A stretch of DNA of 64,000 bases, taken from assembly GCA_013349405.1 (NCBI GenBank), contig DUZS01000001.1:62001-126000 (forward strand), given 5' to 3'. Both the position numbers and the translations under genes were made by a program. How positions within the stretch are numbered: position 1 is the stretch's first letter; each line of letters opens with the position of its first letter. The DNA comes from Desulfuromonadales bacterium (lineage in GTDB: Bacteria; Desulfobacterota; Desulfuromonadia; Geobacterales; Pseudopelobacteraceae). Shown here one piece after another: positions 4,341 through 26,257 of this stretch. Under the pieces are notes generated by a model. The model made no database searches. It was given only the letters and a program-made list of their open reading frames with translations, and was not told the origin of the DNA.

Positions 4341-5357
4341 TCAGATTTTCCCCGTAACGATCAGTACCAGAAAAATAACGTAAAAGGCACCTCCCGCCAG
4401 TAATGTACCCGGCGTCAGGTGCTTTTTAATACGGATCTGCAGATAGGCCAGGCTGACTGAGGCGAACGTAAGAGCTACAGTCAGCAGGGCAGCCGTATTA
4501 AGCTGCCAGTCGGTCATCATAATACCGATGGCGGTGATGATCGACCCCTGGAAAACCATGGCTCCGGTGACATTGCCGATAGCCAGGGTGTCCTTGCCTT
4601 TGTTGATCCAGATCACGCTGTTGAATTTCTCCGGCAGTTCAGTTGCAATCGGGGCGATGATCATGGCGAGTATGAACGGTGATATCCCCATCTGCACGGA
4701 AATGATCTGAACTTTCTCCACGAAGATGTACGATCCCCACACGATCAGCAGCAATGAACTCAATACCTGGGTGCCGATGATAAACATCTGCGGGTCGTGG
4801 GATTTGGGAGCAAAGTAGCAGGGATCGATCTCGGACTCCTCAATCTCATGCGCTTCCGGTTCGCCCCCTCCTTTGAGGGTCTGCAGTACATAACCGGCGT
4901 ACGTCAATAACAGCGCCATGGCGATAAACGTCTTGATAACCGGATGCCCGCCGAGGAATGAAGCGGCGATAGCCACGGTGTAGAGAATCAGGAAATATTC
5001 CATATCACGGCGCATGACGGTCGTATCAACGCGCATGACCGGATAATCGTCGCGCTTTTTCCGGTTCCAGATCACTGCCAGACCGCTGATGAAAAAAGCC
5101 AGTGTTCCAAGCATGAACGGGGCACCAATGATGGCTCCGACACCAATTTTATGACCGGCTTCCGGCGTGCCGAACATGATGGCGACAATCGGCACCAGAG
5201 TCTCCGGCAGGGCGGTGCCGACCGCAGCGAAGATACTCCCCACCGCCCCATCGGATAGCTTCATCTTTTTTCCGAACCACTCCAGGCCATTGGTAAAAAC
5301 AGTTGCCCCCAGCAGGATAATCCCCAGAGCGACAAGTAATAACATCCAGTTTAACAT
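4341..5357 (-). CDS. Sodium/calcium exchanger-type (CaCA superfamily) membrane antiporter
   Basis: This 338-residue inner-membrane protein has two inverted repeats of about five helices. The alpha-repeat signatures are GTALPET (about residue 48) in the first half and APIATELPEKFNSV in the second, with the acidic residues expected to bind the cation. An acidic, soluble loop (HEIEESEID) joins the halves. CaCA members exchange Ca2+ or other divalent cations for Na+ or H+; the actual ion is not readable here. Its ATG follows directly on the kup stop codon (TAA-ATG), so the two are almost certainly translationally coupled. Confidence 0.85.
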   Translation of the reverse strand: MLNWMLLLVALGIILLGATVFTNGLEWFGKKMKLSDGAVGSIFAAVGTALPETLVPIVAIMFGTPEAGHKIGVGAIIGAPFMLGTLAFFISGLAVIWNRKKRDDYPVMRVDTTVMRRDMEYFLILYTVAIAASFLGGHPVIKTFIAMALLLTYAGYVLQTLKGGGEPEAHEIEESEIDPCYFAPKSHDPQMFIIGTQVLSSLLLIVWGSYIFVEKVQIISVQMGISPFILAMIIAPIATELPEKFNSVIWINKGKDTLAIGNVTGAMVFQGSIITAIGIMMTDWQLNTAALLTVALTFASVSLAYLQIRIKKHLTPGTLLAGGAFYVIFLVLIVTGKI

Positions 5358-7175
5358 TTACATCTCCACTCGGGTTACAACCCCCTGCAGTTTCGCCGCA
5401 GGTAGCTTGTTGAATTGTACGAAGTTCGGGGTGAGCTTCTTCAGAGTTGAAAAGACTTTCCACGCCGGGTTGCCGGTTGAGATGTCTTCAATCCCATAAA
5501 AAATGACCTTCTCTACAATGCCATTATCTTTAAGCAGTTGTTCGATATCAAACAACTCCATGTAGCCGGCCTTAATCTCAAAGGCATCCAGTCCGGTTCC
5601 GAGTGCGGTCGTCAGACTGCTTTCCAGGCCATACGGCTCGTCGGTGCGGAAGATGGAAATGAGCACATTACGTTCATAAATGATATTCGACCGTATTGTG
5701 CAGTGCACGAGGTAGGGGGGGATCGTGTTCCACTCTTTTACGAAAAACAGGCCGGTGCCGGCGATGTGCCCCTTTTTGTAGATCTGCTCATAGCTCATCA
5801 GATAGGTTTCCATGTCAAGCGGCCTGAGTGCTTTATAGAGCGCCCGCTGTCCTTTGGTCCAGATCAAGATTGCCGCAAGCGGAATGGACGCGAGTATCAG
5901 CGACCAGTAACCGCCGTGCGGTAGTTTGTACATATTGGAAATCAGGAAGGCAAAATCGGCCAGCGTGACGAACAGGGCAAGAGGCACCTTCCATTTTTTC
6001 TTCGTGCGGGAAAAGATCATGACCATCATGATCCCGGTTATGGTCATGGTGCCGGTAACGGCCAGGCCATAAGCTGCTGCGAGGTTTTCTGACTTCTGGA
6101 AGATCAGCATGATCATGATCACGAGAGCAAGGAGTATCCAGTTGACCGCGCCGATATAGATCTGGGATTTGAGTTGATGGGATGTATAGTCAACCTTCAG
6201 GAGCGGCAGGATGCGGGTTGTAATCCCCTGGTAGACGATGGAGAAAACGCCGCTGATCAACGCCTGTGAAGCGATGACCGTGGCCATGACCGTCAGAATC
6301 AGGAACGGAATGTACAGCATGGCAGATTGCGATTGAACCATGCCGAAAAGGATGTTCTTGGCATCGGGATGGTTGAGTATGAAAGCCCCTTGCCCGAGGT
6401 AATTAATTACCAGTGCGACAAAGACCAGATACCAGGCACGTTTGACCGGCCTGCGGCCGAGGTGCCCCATGTCCGCGTAGAGTGCCTCTCCGCCGGTCGC
6501 GCAGAGAATGACTTCTGAAAGTACGAAAAAACCGGCCATACCGTTTTTTGCCAGGAAGCCGATGGCATAATGAGGGCTGACGGCCGCAATAATACCGGGA
6601 AACGAAAAGAGGGCGATAATGCCTGATATCGTCAGGGCGGCGAACCAGACGACCATGATCGGTCCAAACGCTTTTGCCACCTTATCGGTTCCCTTGAATT
6701 GAAAAACAAAGAGGAATACGGCAATAATAGCGGCAATAAGGATCAGCATAGACTGGCTGAGCCCACTCAAAGAGGGGATCAGCAGGGCTCCTTCCACCGC
6801 AGAGAGGATGGAAATGGCGGGTGTGATGACACCGTCTCCCAAAAGCAGGGCGACGCCGAGGTAGGAGAGAAACGTCACAAAAACCATCTGCCGCCCCGGC
6901 TTGATCATACGCACCAGGATCTCGCGCAGAACGATGGTGCCACCTTCGCCTTTGCGGGAGAGGCTCATGGCAAGCAGGGCATATTCGATGTTAACGAGGA
7001 TCATCAAGGTCCAGACGATCAGCGAGATAATCCCGAAAACGTTCTCCTCGGTCGGTTTGGTCAGCGCGATGATGACAGTCAGGGTATAGATCGGGCTGGT
7101 GCCGATGTCGCCGAACACCAGACCCATTGATTTAATAATGCCGCCCCAGAAAGAGTCGGCTTCGCTATGTTTCAT
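5358..7175 (-). CDS. kup: Low-affinity K+ uptake carrier Kup
   Basis: This 605-residue Kup/HAK/KT family transporter starts at the ATG at 7175 with GGAGG upstream. The N-terminal GLVFGDIGTSPIYTL motif (about residues 18-32) is the family signature. About 12 transmembrane helices follow, including GEGGTIVL and GGEALYADMGHLG, and there is a soluble C-terminal domain of about 150 residues. The family moves K+ with protons across the inner membrane. It sits 62 bp after kdpE on the same strand, so a high-affinity pump and a low-affinity carrier are side by side. Confidence 0.95.
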   Translation of the reverse strand: MKHSEADSFWGGIIKSMGLVFGDIGTSPIYTLTVIIALTKPTEENVFGIISLIVWTLMILVNIEYALLAMSLSRKGEGGTIVLREILVRMIKPGRQMVFVTFLSYLGVALLLGDGVITPAISILSAVEGALLIPSLSGLSQSMLILIAAIIAVFLFVFQFKGTDKVAKAFGPIMVVWFAALTISGIIALFSFPGIIAAVSPHYAIGFLAKNGMAGFFVLSEVILCATGGEALYADMGHLGRRPVKRAWYLVFVALVINYLGQGAFILNHPDAKNILFGMVQSQSAMLYIPFLILTVMATVIASQALISGVFSIVYQGITTRILPLLKVDYTSHQLKSQIYIGAVNWILLALVIMIMLIFQKSENLAAAYGLAVTGTMTITGIMMVMIFSRTKKKWKVPLALFVTLADFAFLISNMYKLPHGGYWSLILASIPLAAILIWTKGQRALYKALRPLDMETYLMSYEQIYKKGHIAGTGLFFVKEWNTIPPYLVHCTIRSNIIYERNVLISIFRTDEPYGLESSLTTALGTGLDAFEIKAGYMELFDIEQLLKDNGIVEKVIFYGIEDISTGNPAWKVFSTLKKLTPNFVQFNKLPAAKLQGVVTRVEM

Positions 7176-20555: not shown

Positions 20556-21830
20556 ATGCTTGATATGAAATACATTCGTGAAAATCTGGATGAGACTGAG
20601 CGGAGTCTCTCTACCCGAGGCGGTCAATCCTATCTCGGCGGCTTCAGTGACCTTGATGAACGTCGCCGTGCGCTGCTGAAAGAGGGCGAGGCGCTCAAAG
20701 CGCTGCGCAACTCCGTCTCGGATGAGATCGGTCGCACCAAAGACAAAAGTCAGGTTCAGGACAAGATCCTTGAGATGCGTGAAGTCTCCCAGAAAATAAA
20801 GAGTCTGGACGAGGAACTGAATCAGGTTGATGCCGAGCTGAATTTATTCCTGTTGACGGTACCGAATATTCCTCATGCAGCAACTCCGGTCGGCACTTCC
20901 GAGAACGACAATGTTCTGGTCAGATCATGGGGCGACCCCATAACATTGCCATTTGATGCGATGGCGCATTGGGACCTCGGCGAGAATCTCGGCATCCTTG
21001 ACTTTGAACGGGGCGCCAAGATAACCGGTGCGCGTTTTACGCTCTATCGTGGCTCCGGTGCCCGGTTGGAGCGGGCTCTGCTTAATTTTATGCTCGATCT
21101 GCATACCGACAGCCACGGTTATCTGGAGGTATTGCCACCTTTTATGGTAAATCGGGAGTCAATGCAGGGAACCGGGCAGCTCCCCAAATTTGAAGAGGAT
21201 CTGTTCAAGCTGGTCGATCCCGATTTTTTCCTGATTCCGACCGCCGAGGTGCCGGTAACCAATATCCATCGCGGCGAAATTCTCAAAAAAAGCGACCTCC
21301 CGATCAGCTATTGCGCGTATACCCCCTGCTTTCGCCGCGAGGCCGGTTCGTACGGGAAAGATACCCGTGGTCTGATTCGTCAGCATCAGTTTAACAAAGT
21401 TGAACTGGTAAAATTCGTCCACCCGACCGAATCGGATGCCGCTTTGGAAACATTGACCGGGCATGCCGAAAAGGTACTGCAGCTGCTCGGCCTGCCGTAC
21501 CGCGTTATGGCCCTCTGCAGCGGTGATATCGGCTTCTCAGCGGCAAAAACCTACGATATCGAAGTCTGGCTGCCGGGGCAGAGCTGTTACCGCGAAATTT
21601 CCTCGTGCAGTACGTTCGGCGACTTTCAGGCACGCCGTGCGTCGATCCGCTTCCGTGAGGACGAAAAAGCCAAGCCGGAGTTTGTCCATACTCTGAACGG
21701 TTCAGGTCTTGCCGTGGGGCGTACCGTGGTAGCGATTCTGGAAAACTATCAGCAGGAAGACGGCTCAGTCTGTATACCTCCGGTTTTGCAGCCGTATATG
21801 GGCGGTCTGGAGCGAATTACGCGTTTGTAG
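20556..21830 (+). CDS. serS: Seryl-tRNA synthetase
   Basis: This 424-residue class II synthetase charges tRNA-Ser (and tRNA-Sec where present). The N-terminal long coiled coil (about 30-100) reaches the tRNA extra arm. The catalytic domain shows TAEVPVTN, motif 2 [15 protein letters not shown] and motif 3 [16 protein letters not shown]. Length is typical. It stands directly upstream of a tRNA-Ser gene. Confidence 0.98.
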
Positions 21831-21885
21831 GCGGTTAGTATTTGAAAATCTGAAACAGCTGTGTTATAAAGTCCGCCATGACATT

Positions 21886-21973
21886 GGAGAGGTGGCCGAG
21901 TGGTTTAAGGCAGCGGTCTTGAAAACCGCCGAGTGTAACAGCTCCGTGAGTTCGAATCTCACCTTCTCCGCCA
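21886..21973 (+). tRNA. tRNA-Ser (anticodon UGA)
   Basis: The acceptor arm GGAGAGG pairs with CTTCTCC, and the D arm contains GGCCGAGTGGTTTAAGGC. The anticodon loop CTTGAAA gives UGA at 21920-21922. A long variable arm (GAGTGTAACAGCTC) marks a class II tRNA such as Ser, and the T arm has GTTCGAATC. The CCA end is encoded. An exact 57-bp copy of its 3' part lies at 23183-23239, which marks it as an integration target. Confidence 0.97.
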
Positions 21974-21974
21974 T
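21918..21974 (+). repeat. Attachment-site copy 1: 3' part of tRNA-Ser
   Basis: From the first base of the anticodon loop to one base past CCA, these 57 bp are identical to 23183-23239. Tyrosine recombinases commonly use this part of a tRNA gene, and the intact gene is retained on this side. Confidence 0.9.
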
Positions 21975-21984
21975 AAATAAAAAC

Positions 21985-22019
21985 AGCGGTTAGCTTTAAA
22001 AGAGCTGGCCGCTTTTTTT
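21985..22019 (+). terminator. Intrinsic terminator after tRNA-Ser
   Basis: AGCGG/CCGCT outer and AGCT/AGCT inner pairing form the stem, followed by seven T residues, 12 bp after the tRNA. Confidence 0.8.
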
Positions 22020-22259
22020 ATGCAGAAAACTGGCTGTGGGACACATACGGGACAAATGAAATTATATCGATGCGCGGGGCTGTAACAAAAATCAACTTCG
22101 TCATTTTACGTTCTCCAGGACGAAAACCCCTGCCTGAGTAATACAAAGCCCTGCTGTTCCCGGATGGAAATCGGGAGTATGTAACCGGCGGCCTTTTTTT
22201 GTTTCTGATTCTTGCGCTTCATGGTTTCTTGTTGTATCTTATTGCAACGGAGGTGCACC

Positions 22260-22478
22260 ATGACTGCTTTAAAATACGTGGTTTATCAAGAGGGCAAGTA
22301 TTACGTTTCACAATGCCTCAATGTCGATGTTGCCAGTTTTGGCAAAACGATCGATGAGGCGGTGAAAAACCTTGCCGATGCCGTCGAGCTGTATTTGAGG
22401 GATGATTTACCGGCAGCGCCGTACATGTTCCATGAGGTAGGAAACGCATTGATCGGAGAGTTTGCCGTCAATGCCTAA
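22260..22478 (+). CDS. hicB: HicB-family antitoxin (short)
   Basis: This 72-residue protein has the partial RNase H-like HicB fold: YVVYQEGKYYVSQCLNVDV, then FGKTIDEAVKNLADAVELYL. No C-terminal DNA-binding domain is present. A strong GGAGG precedes the ATG at 22260. It overlaps the following hicA by 8 bp, and the antitoxin-first order is typical of one hicBA class. It is expected to bind and neutralise HicA. Confidence 0.88.
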   Translation: MTALKYVVYQEGKYYVSQCLNVDVASFGKTIDEAVKNLADAVELYLRDDLPAAPYMFHEVGNALIGEFAVNA

Positions 22479-22677
22479 ACTCTACACCTCACGGCATATC
22501 ATAAGCGTTTTGATAAAAAATGGCTTTTATGAGGTATCACAGTCCGGCAGCCACAAGAAGTTTTACAACGGCATCTCTACAACCATAGTTCCGGCTGGAA
22601 AGCGTGAAATTCCCATCGGTACATTCCTTTCAATAGTCAGGCAGTCAGGAGTATCACGGACTGAATTTGATAAATGA
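22471..22677 (+). CDS. hicA: HicA-family mRNA interferase toxin
   Basis: This 68-residue dsRBD-like protein has catalytic histidine in SGSHKKF and IPIGTFLSIVRQSGVSRTEF at the C-terminus. All features of a working HicA are present. The start ATG at 22471 overlaps the end of hicB. The family cleaves mRNA when the antitoxin is lost. Confidence 0.9.
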   Translation: MPKLYTSRHIISVLIKNGFYEVSQSGSHKKFYNGISTTIVPAGKREIPIGTFLSIVRQSGVSRTEFDK

Positions 22678-22699
22678 CTGTCAGCGGGGAGTGATCGAG

Positions 22700-22951
22700 A
22701 TGAAACATTACGGCTTTGATGTTTTTTGGAGTGATGAGGATGGCGGCTATATTGCCACATGTCCGGACTTTCCCGGCCTGTCAGCTTTCGGGGAGAGTGA
22801 GGAACAGGCATTGAGCGAGGGCAAAGCGGCCTTGCGGCTGTTCCTGGAATCGATACAGACCGAAGGGAAGCGAGCGCCACGGGCTACAACTCTGCAAAAG
22901 TTTCGACGGCCTTTCAGCAGATCGACAGCACGGCGGGCGGTTGCAGCATAA
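22700..22951 (+). CDS. Second HicB-like protein lacking the DNA-binding domain
   Basis: This 83-residue protein has the HicB N-terminal domain: VFWSDEDGGYIATCPDFPGLSAFG and EEQALSEGKAALRLFLE. After TLQKF it continues as an arginine-rich tail (RRPFSRSTARRAVAA) instead of the usual ribbon-helix-helix domain. It follows hicA by 22 bp with GGGGAG upstream. It may be a truncated orphan antitoxin or a second partner of the same toxin. Confidence 0.75.
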   Translation: MKHYGFDVFWSDEDGGYIATCPDFPGLSAFGESEEQALSEGKAALRLFLESIQTEGKRAPRATTLQKFRRPFSRSTARRAVAA

Positions 22952-23182
22952 CGGCGGTAATGTCAGTATTCCGTTTAATTCAATGAAAATTATTGTATCC
23001 GCTACTAAAAATATATTCCGTGCAATTTAAACCGTCAATCGTGTTCAGTGCATTTTCAGTGCATTTAATGTCAACAACAGTCAATAATAAATAGAACTCA
23101 CTAATAAAATAAATGGAGTAAATAGCTGAATGTATTATGATAGTCTATTGTATCCAGTTGTAAATAATAGGTTTTTACCAGA

Positions 23183-23239
23183 CTTGAAAACCGCCGAGTG
23201 TAACAGCTCCGTGAGTTCGAATCTCACCTTCTCCGCCAT
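23183..23239 (+). pseudogene. tRNA-Ser 3' fragment (attachment-site copy 2)
   Basis: This 57-bp duplicate of 21918-21974 begins at the anticodon loop and includes the variable arm, T arm, acceptor 3' strand and CCA. It lacks the 5' half of the tRNA, so it cannot make a tRNA. It is followed by its own terminator, similar in plan to that after the intact gene. Confidence 0.92.
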
Positions 23240-23248
23240 TAAAAAACA

Positions 23249-23281
23249 AGCGGCTCGCTTACATGGGCAGCCGCTTTTTTG
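23249..23281 (+). terminator. Intrinsic terminator after the tRNA fragment
   Basis: AGCGGCT pairs with AGCCGCT around a loop, followed by six T residues. This is probably the original tRNA-Ser terminator displaced by the insertion. Confidence 0.8.
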
Positions 23282-23332
23282 TTAATACTGCACGAAATTT
23301 CTCCAAAACAATCAAAGAAAGCGGGGTGAGAC

Positions 23333-23590
23333 ATGCCGAGATCAATGGCAATAAATCGGATAGAGCAACAAATTGAGGCACTGCCACCGGTTGAGCAGAT
23401 CATGATGCTTGAGCGTATAGTTCAACACCTTAAACAGCTTCTATTAGCTCAGCCTATCACTGTTGCACCACAAAAAGAAGGCAAAGGGATCGCAGAAAAA
23501 CTGAATCAAGTTTATAAAACCGAGACATCCCGTTTGGATCCTCAGTTAATTAATGCCCAGTGCACCTCTTTTAGTCGGGATGAGTGGTGA
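23333..23590 (+). CDS. Antitoxin-like protein of a mazEF-type pair
   Basis: This 85-residue protein is helical, with ALPPVEQIMMLERIVQHLKQLL suggesting an amphipathic dimerisation helix, and has a charged C-terminus. I do not recognise a named family, but it overlaps a clear PemK/MazF toxin by 1 bp (TGATG), so it is very probably the antitoxin. ATG 23333 has GGGGTGAG upstream; ATG 23345 is an alternative. Confidence 0.7.
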   Translation: MPRSMAINRIEQQIEALPPVEQIMMLERIVQHLKQLLLAQPITVAPQKEGKGIAEKLNQVYKTETSRLDPQLINAQCTSFSRDEW

Positions 23591-23928
23591 TGAAACGCGG
23601 TGAAATATGGTGGGCTGATCTCCCCGACCCGGTAGCCTCGGAACCTGGGTATCGTCGGCCACTTGCCATTATCCAAGTTGATGAATTTAACCGGAGCCGT
23701 ATCAACACGGTCATGGTCGTTGTTCTGACAACAAACCTTCGGCTTGCCGAGGCTCCGGGAAATGTTCTGTTAAAATCAGTGCAAACCGGGTTGCCTAAAG
23801 ATTCAGTGGCTAACGTTTCTCAAGTACTAACAGTGGATAAGTCCTTTTTGACTGAAAAAGCTGGTAAATTGCGAAAGTTGGAACTACAGAAGATTGAGTC
23901 CGGATTACGACTGGTATTGGGTCTGTAA
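23590..23928 (+). CDS. MazF/PemK-family endoribonuclease toxin
   Basis: This 112-residue protein has the PemK fold signature: KRGEIWWADLPDP at the start, GYRRPLAIIQVDEFN, and VMVVVLTTN. TGLPKDSVANVSQVLTVDKSFL completes the usual core. Such toxins cut mRNA at short motifs. GTG codons lie just upstream, but ATG 23590, overlapping the antitoxin stop, is the natural start. The pair lies just outside the tRNA-bounded element. Confidence 0.9.
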   Translation: MKRGEIWWADLPDPVASEPGYRRPLAIIQVDEFNRSRINTVMVVVLTTNLRLAEAPGNVLLKSVQTGLPKDSVANVSQVLTVDKSFLTEKAGKLRKLELQKIESGLRLVLGL

Positions 23929-24023
23929 TTCTTGAGTGATGTACGGATGAGATGAGTATTTTGAGACTTAAATAAAGGCGAGATAAGTAGGAGTCCCGGA
24001 ATTCCCCCGAAAGGAAGATAACC

Positions 24024-24620
24024 ATGAAAGTTTATATGCCTGGGCGTGCTTTGGCTGTTATAGCTCTCTTGCTCCTCATGATGGCTTGTGCCGCTTCAAA
24101 GCCTGGCTTACGAGCATACCGCCAGGGTGACTATGCTGCTGCAATAAAGGAGAGTACACCTCATGCAGAAAATGGAGATGCATACTCTCAATGGCTGCTT
24201 GGTTCCTCCTACGCTAATGCCGAACCACCAATTAAAGACATTCGTGAAGCAGAGCGATGGATAAAAAAAGCGGCTGATCAAGATTTTGTTCCGGCAATGG
24301 TGGACCTGGCAAAAATAAGTTTATTTTATGACTCTGTGAAAAATGAACAGGTTGCGTATGGATGGTATCAGAAAGCCGCCAATTATGGTAATTCTGAAGC
24401 TCAATTCATGCTGGGCTTATATAGCTTCTCAGGAACAGGGGGATCTGCCAAAGATGATGTAAAAGCATTTACGTGGTTGCTGCTCTCGGCAAAACAGGGG
24501 CATCCGCTTGCTAAATTGATGTTGGAAAAAAGTAAGGATAAAATCAGCCAGATGGACCTTGGAAAAGCACAACAGATGGCAAGTGAGTGGAGACCGATCA
24601 ACACCAAAAAGGAGGAATAG
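24024..24620 (+). CDS. Lipoprotein with Sel1-like repeats
   Basis: This 198-residue protein has a lipoprotein signal peptide (lipobox LLMMAC, lipidated C22) and at least three Sel1/TPR-like helical repeats, for example AERWIKKAADQDFVPAMVDL, YGWYQKAANYGNSEAQFMLG and TWLLLSAKQGHPLAKLML. Such repeats are scaffolds for protein contact. No enzymatic motif is seen. It is a single gene with AAGGA before the ATG. Confidence 0.85.
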   Translation: MKVYMPGRALAVIALLLLMMACAASKPGLRAYRQGDYAAAIKESTPHAENGDAYSQWLLGSSYANAEPPIKDIREAERWIKKAADQDFVPAMVDLAKISLFYDSVKNEQVAYGWYQKAANYGNSEAQFMLGLYSFSGTGGSAKDDVKAFTWLLLSAKQGHPLAKLMLEKSKDKISQMDLGKAQQMASEWRPINTKKEE

Positions 24621-24721
24621 GGCCTGCATGCTTCAGGTCTTTTCCTCGTTTTATAAATGGTTCTGAAAGTATAACGTTTTAGTGGTCCCTACGTGAAAAC
24701 CACCCGTTGTCGGTTGCAAGG

Positions 24722-24756
24722 AGGCCGAAGTCCTTGTCTGGATAGCGGCCTTTTTT
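24722..24756 (+). terminator. Intrinsic terminator downstream of the Sel1 lipoprotein
   Basis: AGGCCG/CGGCCT with inner TCC/GGA forms the stem, followed by six T residues. A weaker hairpin (GGCCTG/CAGGTC) lies nearer the gene at about 24619-24642. Confidence 0.65.
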
Positions 24757-24815
24757 CATGAATAATTCTATAATTGAGAAGACCGCTTTGTCAAAGATTA
24801 TGGTATATAGCCACT

Positions 24816-26127: not shown

Positions 26128-26174
26128 TCTAATCTGCGGCGACATATCACCTTCAACACTACTATAAAATCGAG

Positions 26175-26209
26175 CGGCTGACCTTTAAATGGGTTGCCGT
26201 TTTTTTTTT
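26175..26209 (+). terminator. Intrinsic terminator after the CBS protein gene
   Basis: CGGC/GCCG and ACC/GGT pair around TTTAAAT, followed by ten T residues. Confidence 0.8.
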
Positions 26210-26257
26210 GTCAAAATCAAAGTATCCACTGTTACATTTGTGATCAGGGAGGCACAC

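Follow-up and report, generated by a model that had tools for sequence, protein, structure and literature searches.

The interval at positions 21975-23239 of the window (the window being the whole 64,000-nucleotide stretch of DNA that was analysed) is best explained as an integrase-less, CIME-like remnant, with chimeric ends, of satellite-like elements that use the 3' parts of tRNA genes, a reading to which we assign a probability of roughly 0.78. Full-length relatives and other stripped copies, all in a host lineage of Geobacter and Desulfuromonas relatives, lead to this view of the window element as internally deleted. The preliminary description of this DNA had called it a minimal element; it is indeed small, devoid of an integrase and bounded by att repeats, but it is better read as what a deletion has left behind.

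A single tRNA gene is present in the window, an intact tRNA-Ser (anticodon TGA) with an encoded CCA, located on the forward strand at 21886-21973 (ARAGORN; Rfam tRNA, 58.7 bits) directly downstream of serS (20556-21830). This is the target gene of the element, and Rfam gave no other match that reaches its cut-off. The attL core, 57 bp in length (21918-21974, forward strand), runs from base 1 of the 7-nt anticodon loop (CTTGAAA) to one base past the CCA, and this copy of the tRNA 3' part recurs on the same strand at 23183-23239 (attR core) with 57/57 identity, just as the preliminary description had it. The start-to-start distance of the two copies is 1265 bp, which corresponds to an interval of about 1.27 kb, and an exact 57-bp repeat of a tRNA end lies far beyond what chance would produce. 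Perfect identity had also been taken as a sign of a recent event or of conversion; as an argument for recency it is weak, since full-length elements likewise have repeats of 56/57 and 47/47. The similarity of the att copies extends beyond the 57 bp because each has its own related terminator downstream, AGCGGTTAGC...GGCCGCTTTTTTT at 21984-22020 on the left, of the type seen in the genomes G029, G031, G002 and G013, and a second one at 23247-23283 on the right (both on the forward strand).

A match to the tRNA-Ser was present in 54 of the 58 relatives that were compared for the site. The preliminary description had proposed looking among relatives for an empty tRNA-Ser site, and one is found in G030, the closest relative found by serS (94.6% amino acid identity). 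Window positions 21850-21917, joined to 23183-23310, match G030 colinearly across both the tRNA and the terminator, past which G030 runs into the gene located at 24783 in the window. The boundaries of the element are therefore the two cores, the right terminator is the native chromosomal terminator of tRNA-Ser, which matches the empty site of G030, and the left terminator is element-borne. These data support the assignment of the left copy, with the whole tRNA, as attL and of the right copy as attR of an element integrated at a tyrosine-recombinase tRNA target, as had been proposed. As the element supplies both the 3' part of the tRNA and its own terminator, the tRNA stays functional.

Elements that combine a related right end with an integrase, for which a search had been suggested, exist in other genomes. 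In G036, an 8-kb element occupies the same tRNA-Ser, its second att core being 56/57 identical, and carries in this order an integrase (PF00589, E 9e-36), a Phg_2220_C/DnaD-like replication protein, a DnaB-like helicase, a Rha-type regulator, hicA', hicB2 and att. The right end of the window element (22682-23239) is 86% identical to it over 562 bp. G061 (CAIPTY010000080.1, a Desulfuromonadales MAG) has a 9-kb element in tRNA-Gln(TTG), flanked by 47/47 att repeats, with an open integrase frame and the gene order of G036. The full-length relatives have phage-type replication genes and gave no match to a relaxase or a conjugation gene, although three ORFs of the G036 element lack a clear family. 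The size of these elements and the absence of recognised capsid or conjugation genes from them suggest that they are phage-satellite-like. Among viral contigs the G036 integrase had no relative and hicB2 only distant ones, and plasmid DNA gave only short matches, covering at most 10% of the query, the best of which lay in the tRNA part.

No integrase was found in the interval itself, whose content is hicB1, hicA, hicB2 and non-coding DNA, nor on the 255-kb contig that carries the window, the eight Phage_integrase matches of the genome all being off this contig. The accompanying idea that an integrase elsewhere in the same genome moves the element is not supported. Seven integrase genes of the genome were considered as candidate movers and rejected, since none is of the G036 or G029 type and their sites are elsewhere (one each at tRNA-Phe, tRNA-Gly and tRNA-Leu, the last with a 24-bp copy of its own, two with no tRNA nearby and two that are Xer-sized), the best of them being 31% identical to the integrase of G036. 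The genome is a draft that is 96% complete, and an unassembled integrase is therefore possible.

The cargo, previously described as hicB-hicA-hicB', was recovered as such, all three genes lying on the forward strand. The toxin gene hicA (22471-22677; 68 aa, GSHKK motif) contains the HicA_toxin domain PF07927 (E 3e-13; 50 bits versus a cut-off of 27), and hicB2 (22700-22951) encodes an antitoxin with a PF15919 (HicB_lk_antitox) match at E 6e-7 and 92-95% amino acid identity to HicB2 of G036, G013 and G008. For hicB1 (22260-22478; 72 aa) the PHROG matches are weak (2e-4 to a nameless family and 0.03 to a HicB-like family), and Pfam and NCBIfam gave none; from these matches and its position overlapping hicA, it is a probable HicB-type antitoxin. 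Although hicB2 is the clear HicB-like antitoxin of the interval, it is the partner of the lost hicA', and it is hicB1 that adjoins hicA.

Comparison with the full-length relatives indicates how this arrangement may have come about. The block that holds the terminator and the promoter of the hic operon (22183-22253, forward strand) is 89-94% identical to the block that precedes hicA' in G036, G008 and G013. Window positions 22178-22274 and 22682 onward align with G036 on either side of its hicA', and the last codons of the replaced hicA' (SGE-stop; 22682-22694, forward strand) persist as a remnant identical to G036 here and into hicB2. Because the block before hicA' is kept and homology is back at 22682, hicA' alone was swapped for hicB1-hicA. 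As the alignment shows, the replacement left hicB2 without its own toxin; it would have occurred at the deletion or earlier. A genome search found no hicA', the cognate toxin of hicB2, in the genome of the window. G008:C439 contains, close to a transposase-like gene, a relative of the hicB1-hicA pair that is 85% identical in nucleotides (94% in amino acids for HicB1). Four of the five codons found only in the hicB2 of the window change the amino acid, whereas the other copies differ mostly silently; these few changes hint that hicB2 may be under relaxed constraint here. From its family, HicA would be expected to be an mRNA interferase that HicB1 keeps in check. Because the toxin would be set free if the hic locus were lost, the operon is probably resistant to deletion. 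Retention of the interval by toxin-antitoxin addiction is hence a plausible, if putative, role of the pair. PADLOC gave no match of weight for anti-phage defence.

The ends of the full-length elements have, just inside, a pair of identical hexamers with an 11-bp period. The hexamer differs between integrase types, being GGGACA for the G029 type (G029, G008 C472 and G008 C289), AGTGCA for G036 and GGCGCA for G061, and the pairs are direct on the left and inverted further in, with another direct pair on the right in every element of which both ends are known. Arm-type sites of lambda-like integrases are arranged in this way, and the sites described here are predicted from sequence. Such pairs are otherwise almost absent from the 1.42 Mb of loci. 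The window element carries a predicted left pair of int_G029 type, GGGACA-N5-GGGACA (22038-22054), and a predicted right pair of int_G036 type, TTCAGTGCATT twice (23044-23066; AGTGCA with an 11-bp period, hexamers at 23047-23063), both on the forward strand; in the 3.43-Mb genome both exact pairs are unique, and both lie inside this element. The left end also aligns with a score of 39 to G029 versus 12 to G036. The element thus appears to be a chimera between the left end of a G029-type and the right end of a G036-type element, although the left pair could also be a drifted one, or belong to another integrase type for which the right end is the proper partner. Between the left arm motif and the hic operon lies a junction segment (22060-22180, no strand assigned) that must contain the internal deletion; no source for it was found among genus relatives, so that the junction can be placed within it but not at a given base.

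We propose that the right side (hicB2, arm motif and attR) would derive from a G036-like element and the left side (terminator and arm motif) from a second element type, with a G029-type integrase, that used the same tRNA-Ser. The two would most likely have stood in tandem at this tRNA, and a deletion would then have taken both integrases and the replication module, so that a left end, the hic operon and a right end stayed between identical cores. Excision of what is left would require an integrase from outside. In none of the genomes compared did a GGGACA-type element stand in tandem with an AGTGCA-type one.

Stripped copies are not confined to the window. G013 has in tRNA-Ser a 0.88-kb interval without an integrase, with only hicA'-hicB2 and att copies identical at 54/56 positions, which stands in tandem with a different, integrase-bearing element. 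In G008, a 1.46-kb integrase-less interval, again with only hicA'-hicB2, lies in tRNA-Gln between exact 45-bp repeats (45/45). On the left it can be aligned with G061 between the tRNA and the start of the integrase gene, beyond which it continues with the sequence just upstream of hicA', and it is therefore an internal deletion of a G061-type element. Two further loci have kept less, L105 having hicA'-hicB2 with the AGTGCA arm pair and L107 hicB2 alone, and around these no convincing tRNA or repeats were found. As all these copies were found via searches with hic sequences, their number gives no frequency of remnants devoid of hic genes.

The three integrase-less intervals of similar layout, located in two tRNA genes (window, G013 and G008), could also be viewed as working non-autonomous mini-elements that retain att cores and arm sites and that a full-length relative, on entering the cell, would excise and integrate in trans with its integrase, in the way MITEs depend on a helper transposase. 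The G008 copy lends itself best to this view, as its arms match (GGCGCA at either end), its left end is preserved over 326 bp and its att copies agree at 45/45 positions, and the integrases of full-length elements at both tRNA sites look intact. However, a matching integrase was found in 0/3 of the genomes that carry such an interval, each interval was single copy in the searches made, the arms of the window element are of two types, and each interval shares its tRNA with a full-length relative of the same right end, which an in-place deletion would fit too. We consider this explanation unlikely for the window element. Since its left and right arm motifs belong to two integrase types, clean excision by one integrase is doubtful, and mobilisation in trans, possible in principle, would be likelier for the matched-arm G008 interval. 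The broader proposal that integrase-less toxin-antitoxin elements with arm sites, att cores and hicAB form a recurrent, trans-mobilised class in this lineage, with exchangeable arm types, appears to us quite unlikely; if it were true, the exchange of arm types between elements would change which helper integrase can move them.

Another way to account for the two hexamers would be a single integrase type with asymmetric arms, GGGACA on the left and AGTGCA on the right, the interval then being a simple deletion of one unseen element. The integrase family is sampled in part and its motifs vary freely among types, which leaves room for such an enzyme, but in the three types for which both ends were seen (G036, G061 and G008 C289) the same hexamer stands on both sides, and we hold this explanation to be decidedly improbable. 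That the hic operon entered alone, the repeat having arisen incidentally when the tRNA was duplicated or through gene conversion, is barely credible and largely refuted already by the comparison with G036, for although the hicB1-hicA relative in G008:C439 does lie at an unrelated locus, next to a transposase-like gene, the empty G030 site, the arm-type motifs at both ends and the 86% identical right end in an integrase-bearing element all stand against it.

Read as a deletion remnant, the window element finds its closest counterpart in CIMEs, which keep attL and attR, have lost their integration genes, arise by decay and accretion and are prevalent; the classical ones in S. salivarius measure 1.2-13 kb with their cargo and are linked to tandem accretion at tRNA and other 3' ends (PMC5704250, PMC7563491). 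Similarly, the window element keeps attL, attR (57/57, with an empty site in G030) and cargo, and has neither integration nor transfer genes. However, CIMEs are decayed ICEs or IMEs, whereas the full-length relatives considered here look satellite-like, with no conjugation gene recognised, and the two ends of the window element would come from two integrase types. The relatives in G036 and G061 resemble phage satellites in layout and size, with an integrase, DnaD-like or DnaB replication functions, Rha, a length of 8-9 kb and no recognised structural genes; the window element itself is devoid of such genes. It differs from autonomous integrative elements in having no integrase of its own. Toxin-antitoxin operons that stabilise islands include HipAB on CGI48 of Shewanella (PMC8978831) and SgiAT on SGI1 (cited in PMC5704250); like these, the hic operon sits on an integrated element and may be able to hold it in the population, but those islands measure many kb and have an integrase, whereas here the toxin-antitoxin genes are nearly everything left.

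No literature on integrase-less tRNA mini-elements as a class was found with the terms used. Decayed att-bounded elements and toxin-antitoxin-stabilised islands are already known; the window element is therefore a variant of these, and its interest lies in the series and in the arm chimera. Taken together, the complete and the stripped relatives that share tRNA sites trace the decay of a satellite-like element to little beyond its ends and a toxin-antitoxin pair. A simple sequence rule for predicting which integrase matches which end is given by the paired hexamers and their 11-bp period, which here seem to reveal the joined ends of two elements. The old idea that addiction modules outlast their carrier elements becomes directly testable on 1.3 kb of DNA.

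Several other loci deserve mention. At 23285-24780 of the window, genes for a MazF/PemK-type toxin, a small upstream ORF and a Sel1-repeat gene separate attR from the gene that directly follows the tRNA in G030, and they therefore make up a second differing stretch of DNA. Further on, downstream of the CBS-domain gene, the window (26145-26216) and G030 (L055, about 5330-5413 in tRNA orientation) both contain what resembles a degraded tRNA-Ser 3' end with its terminator, a hint that this tRNA had earlier received a larger insertion, which now lies behind the current one. A third integrase type, int_G013 (97% identical between G006 and G013), occurs beside a distal att of the same tRNA-Ser (L058/L059 in G006, L067 in G013), the G006 element with this integrase type being about 32 kb long. 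An integrase relative in G029:C110 (L150, 5457-5496 and 10722-10809) is flanked on one side by a complete tRNA-Ser(CGA) and on the other by a repeat of the 5' 40 bases of this tRNA, not of its 3' part. In the genome of the window itself, tRNA-Leu(CAG) harbours an element with an integrase, whose 24-bp att copy lies at a distance of 7 kb (L097, G000:C3, 3029-3052 and 10052-10138), and an 8-kb element with a G029-type integrase is found at a selenocysteine tRNA gene in G008:C289 (L151, 7111-7208 and 15288-15353), its att copy being identical at 60/66 positions.
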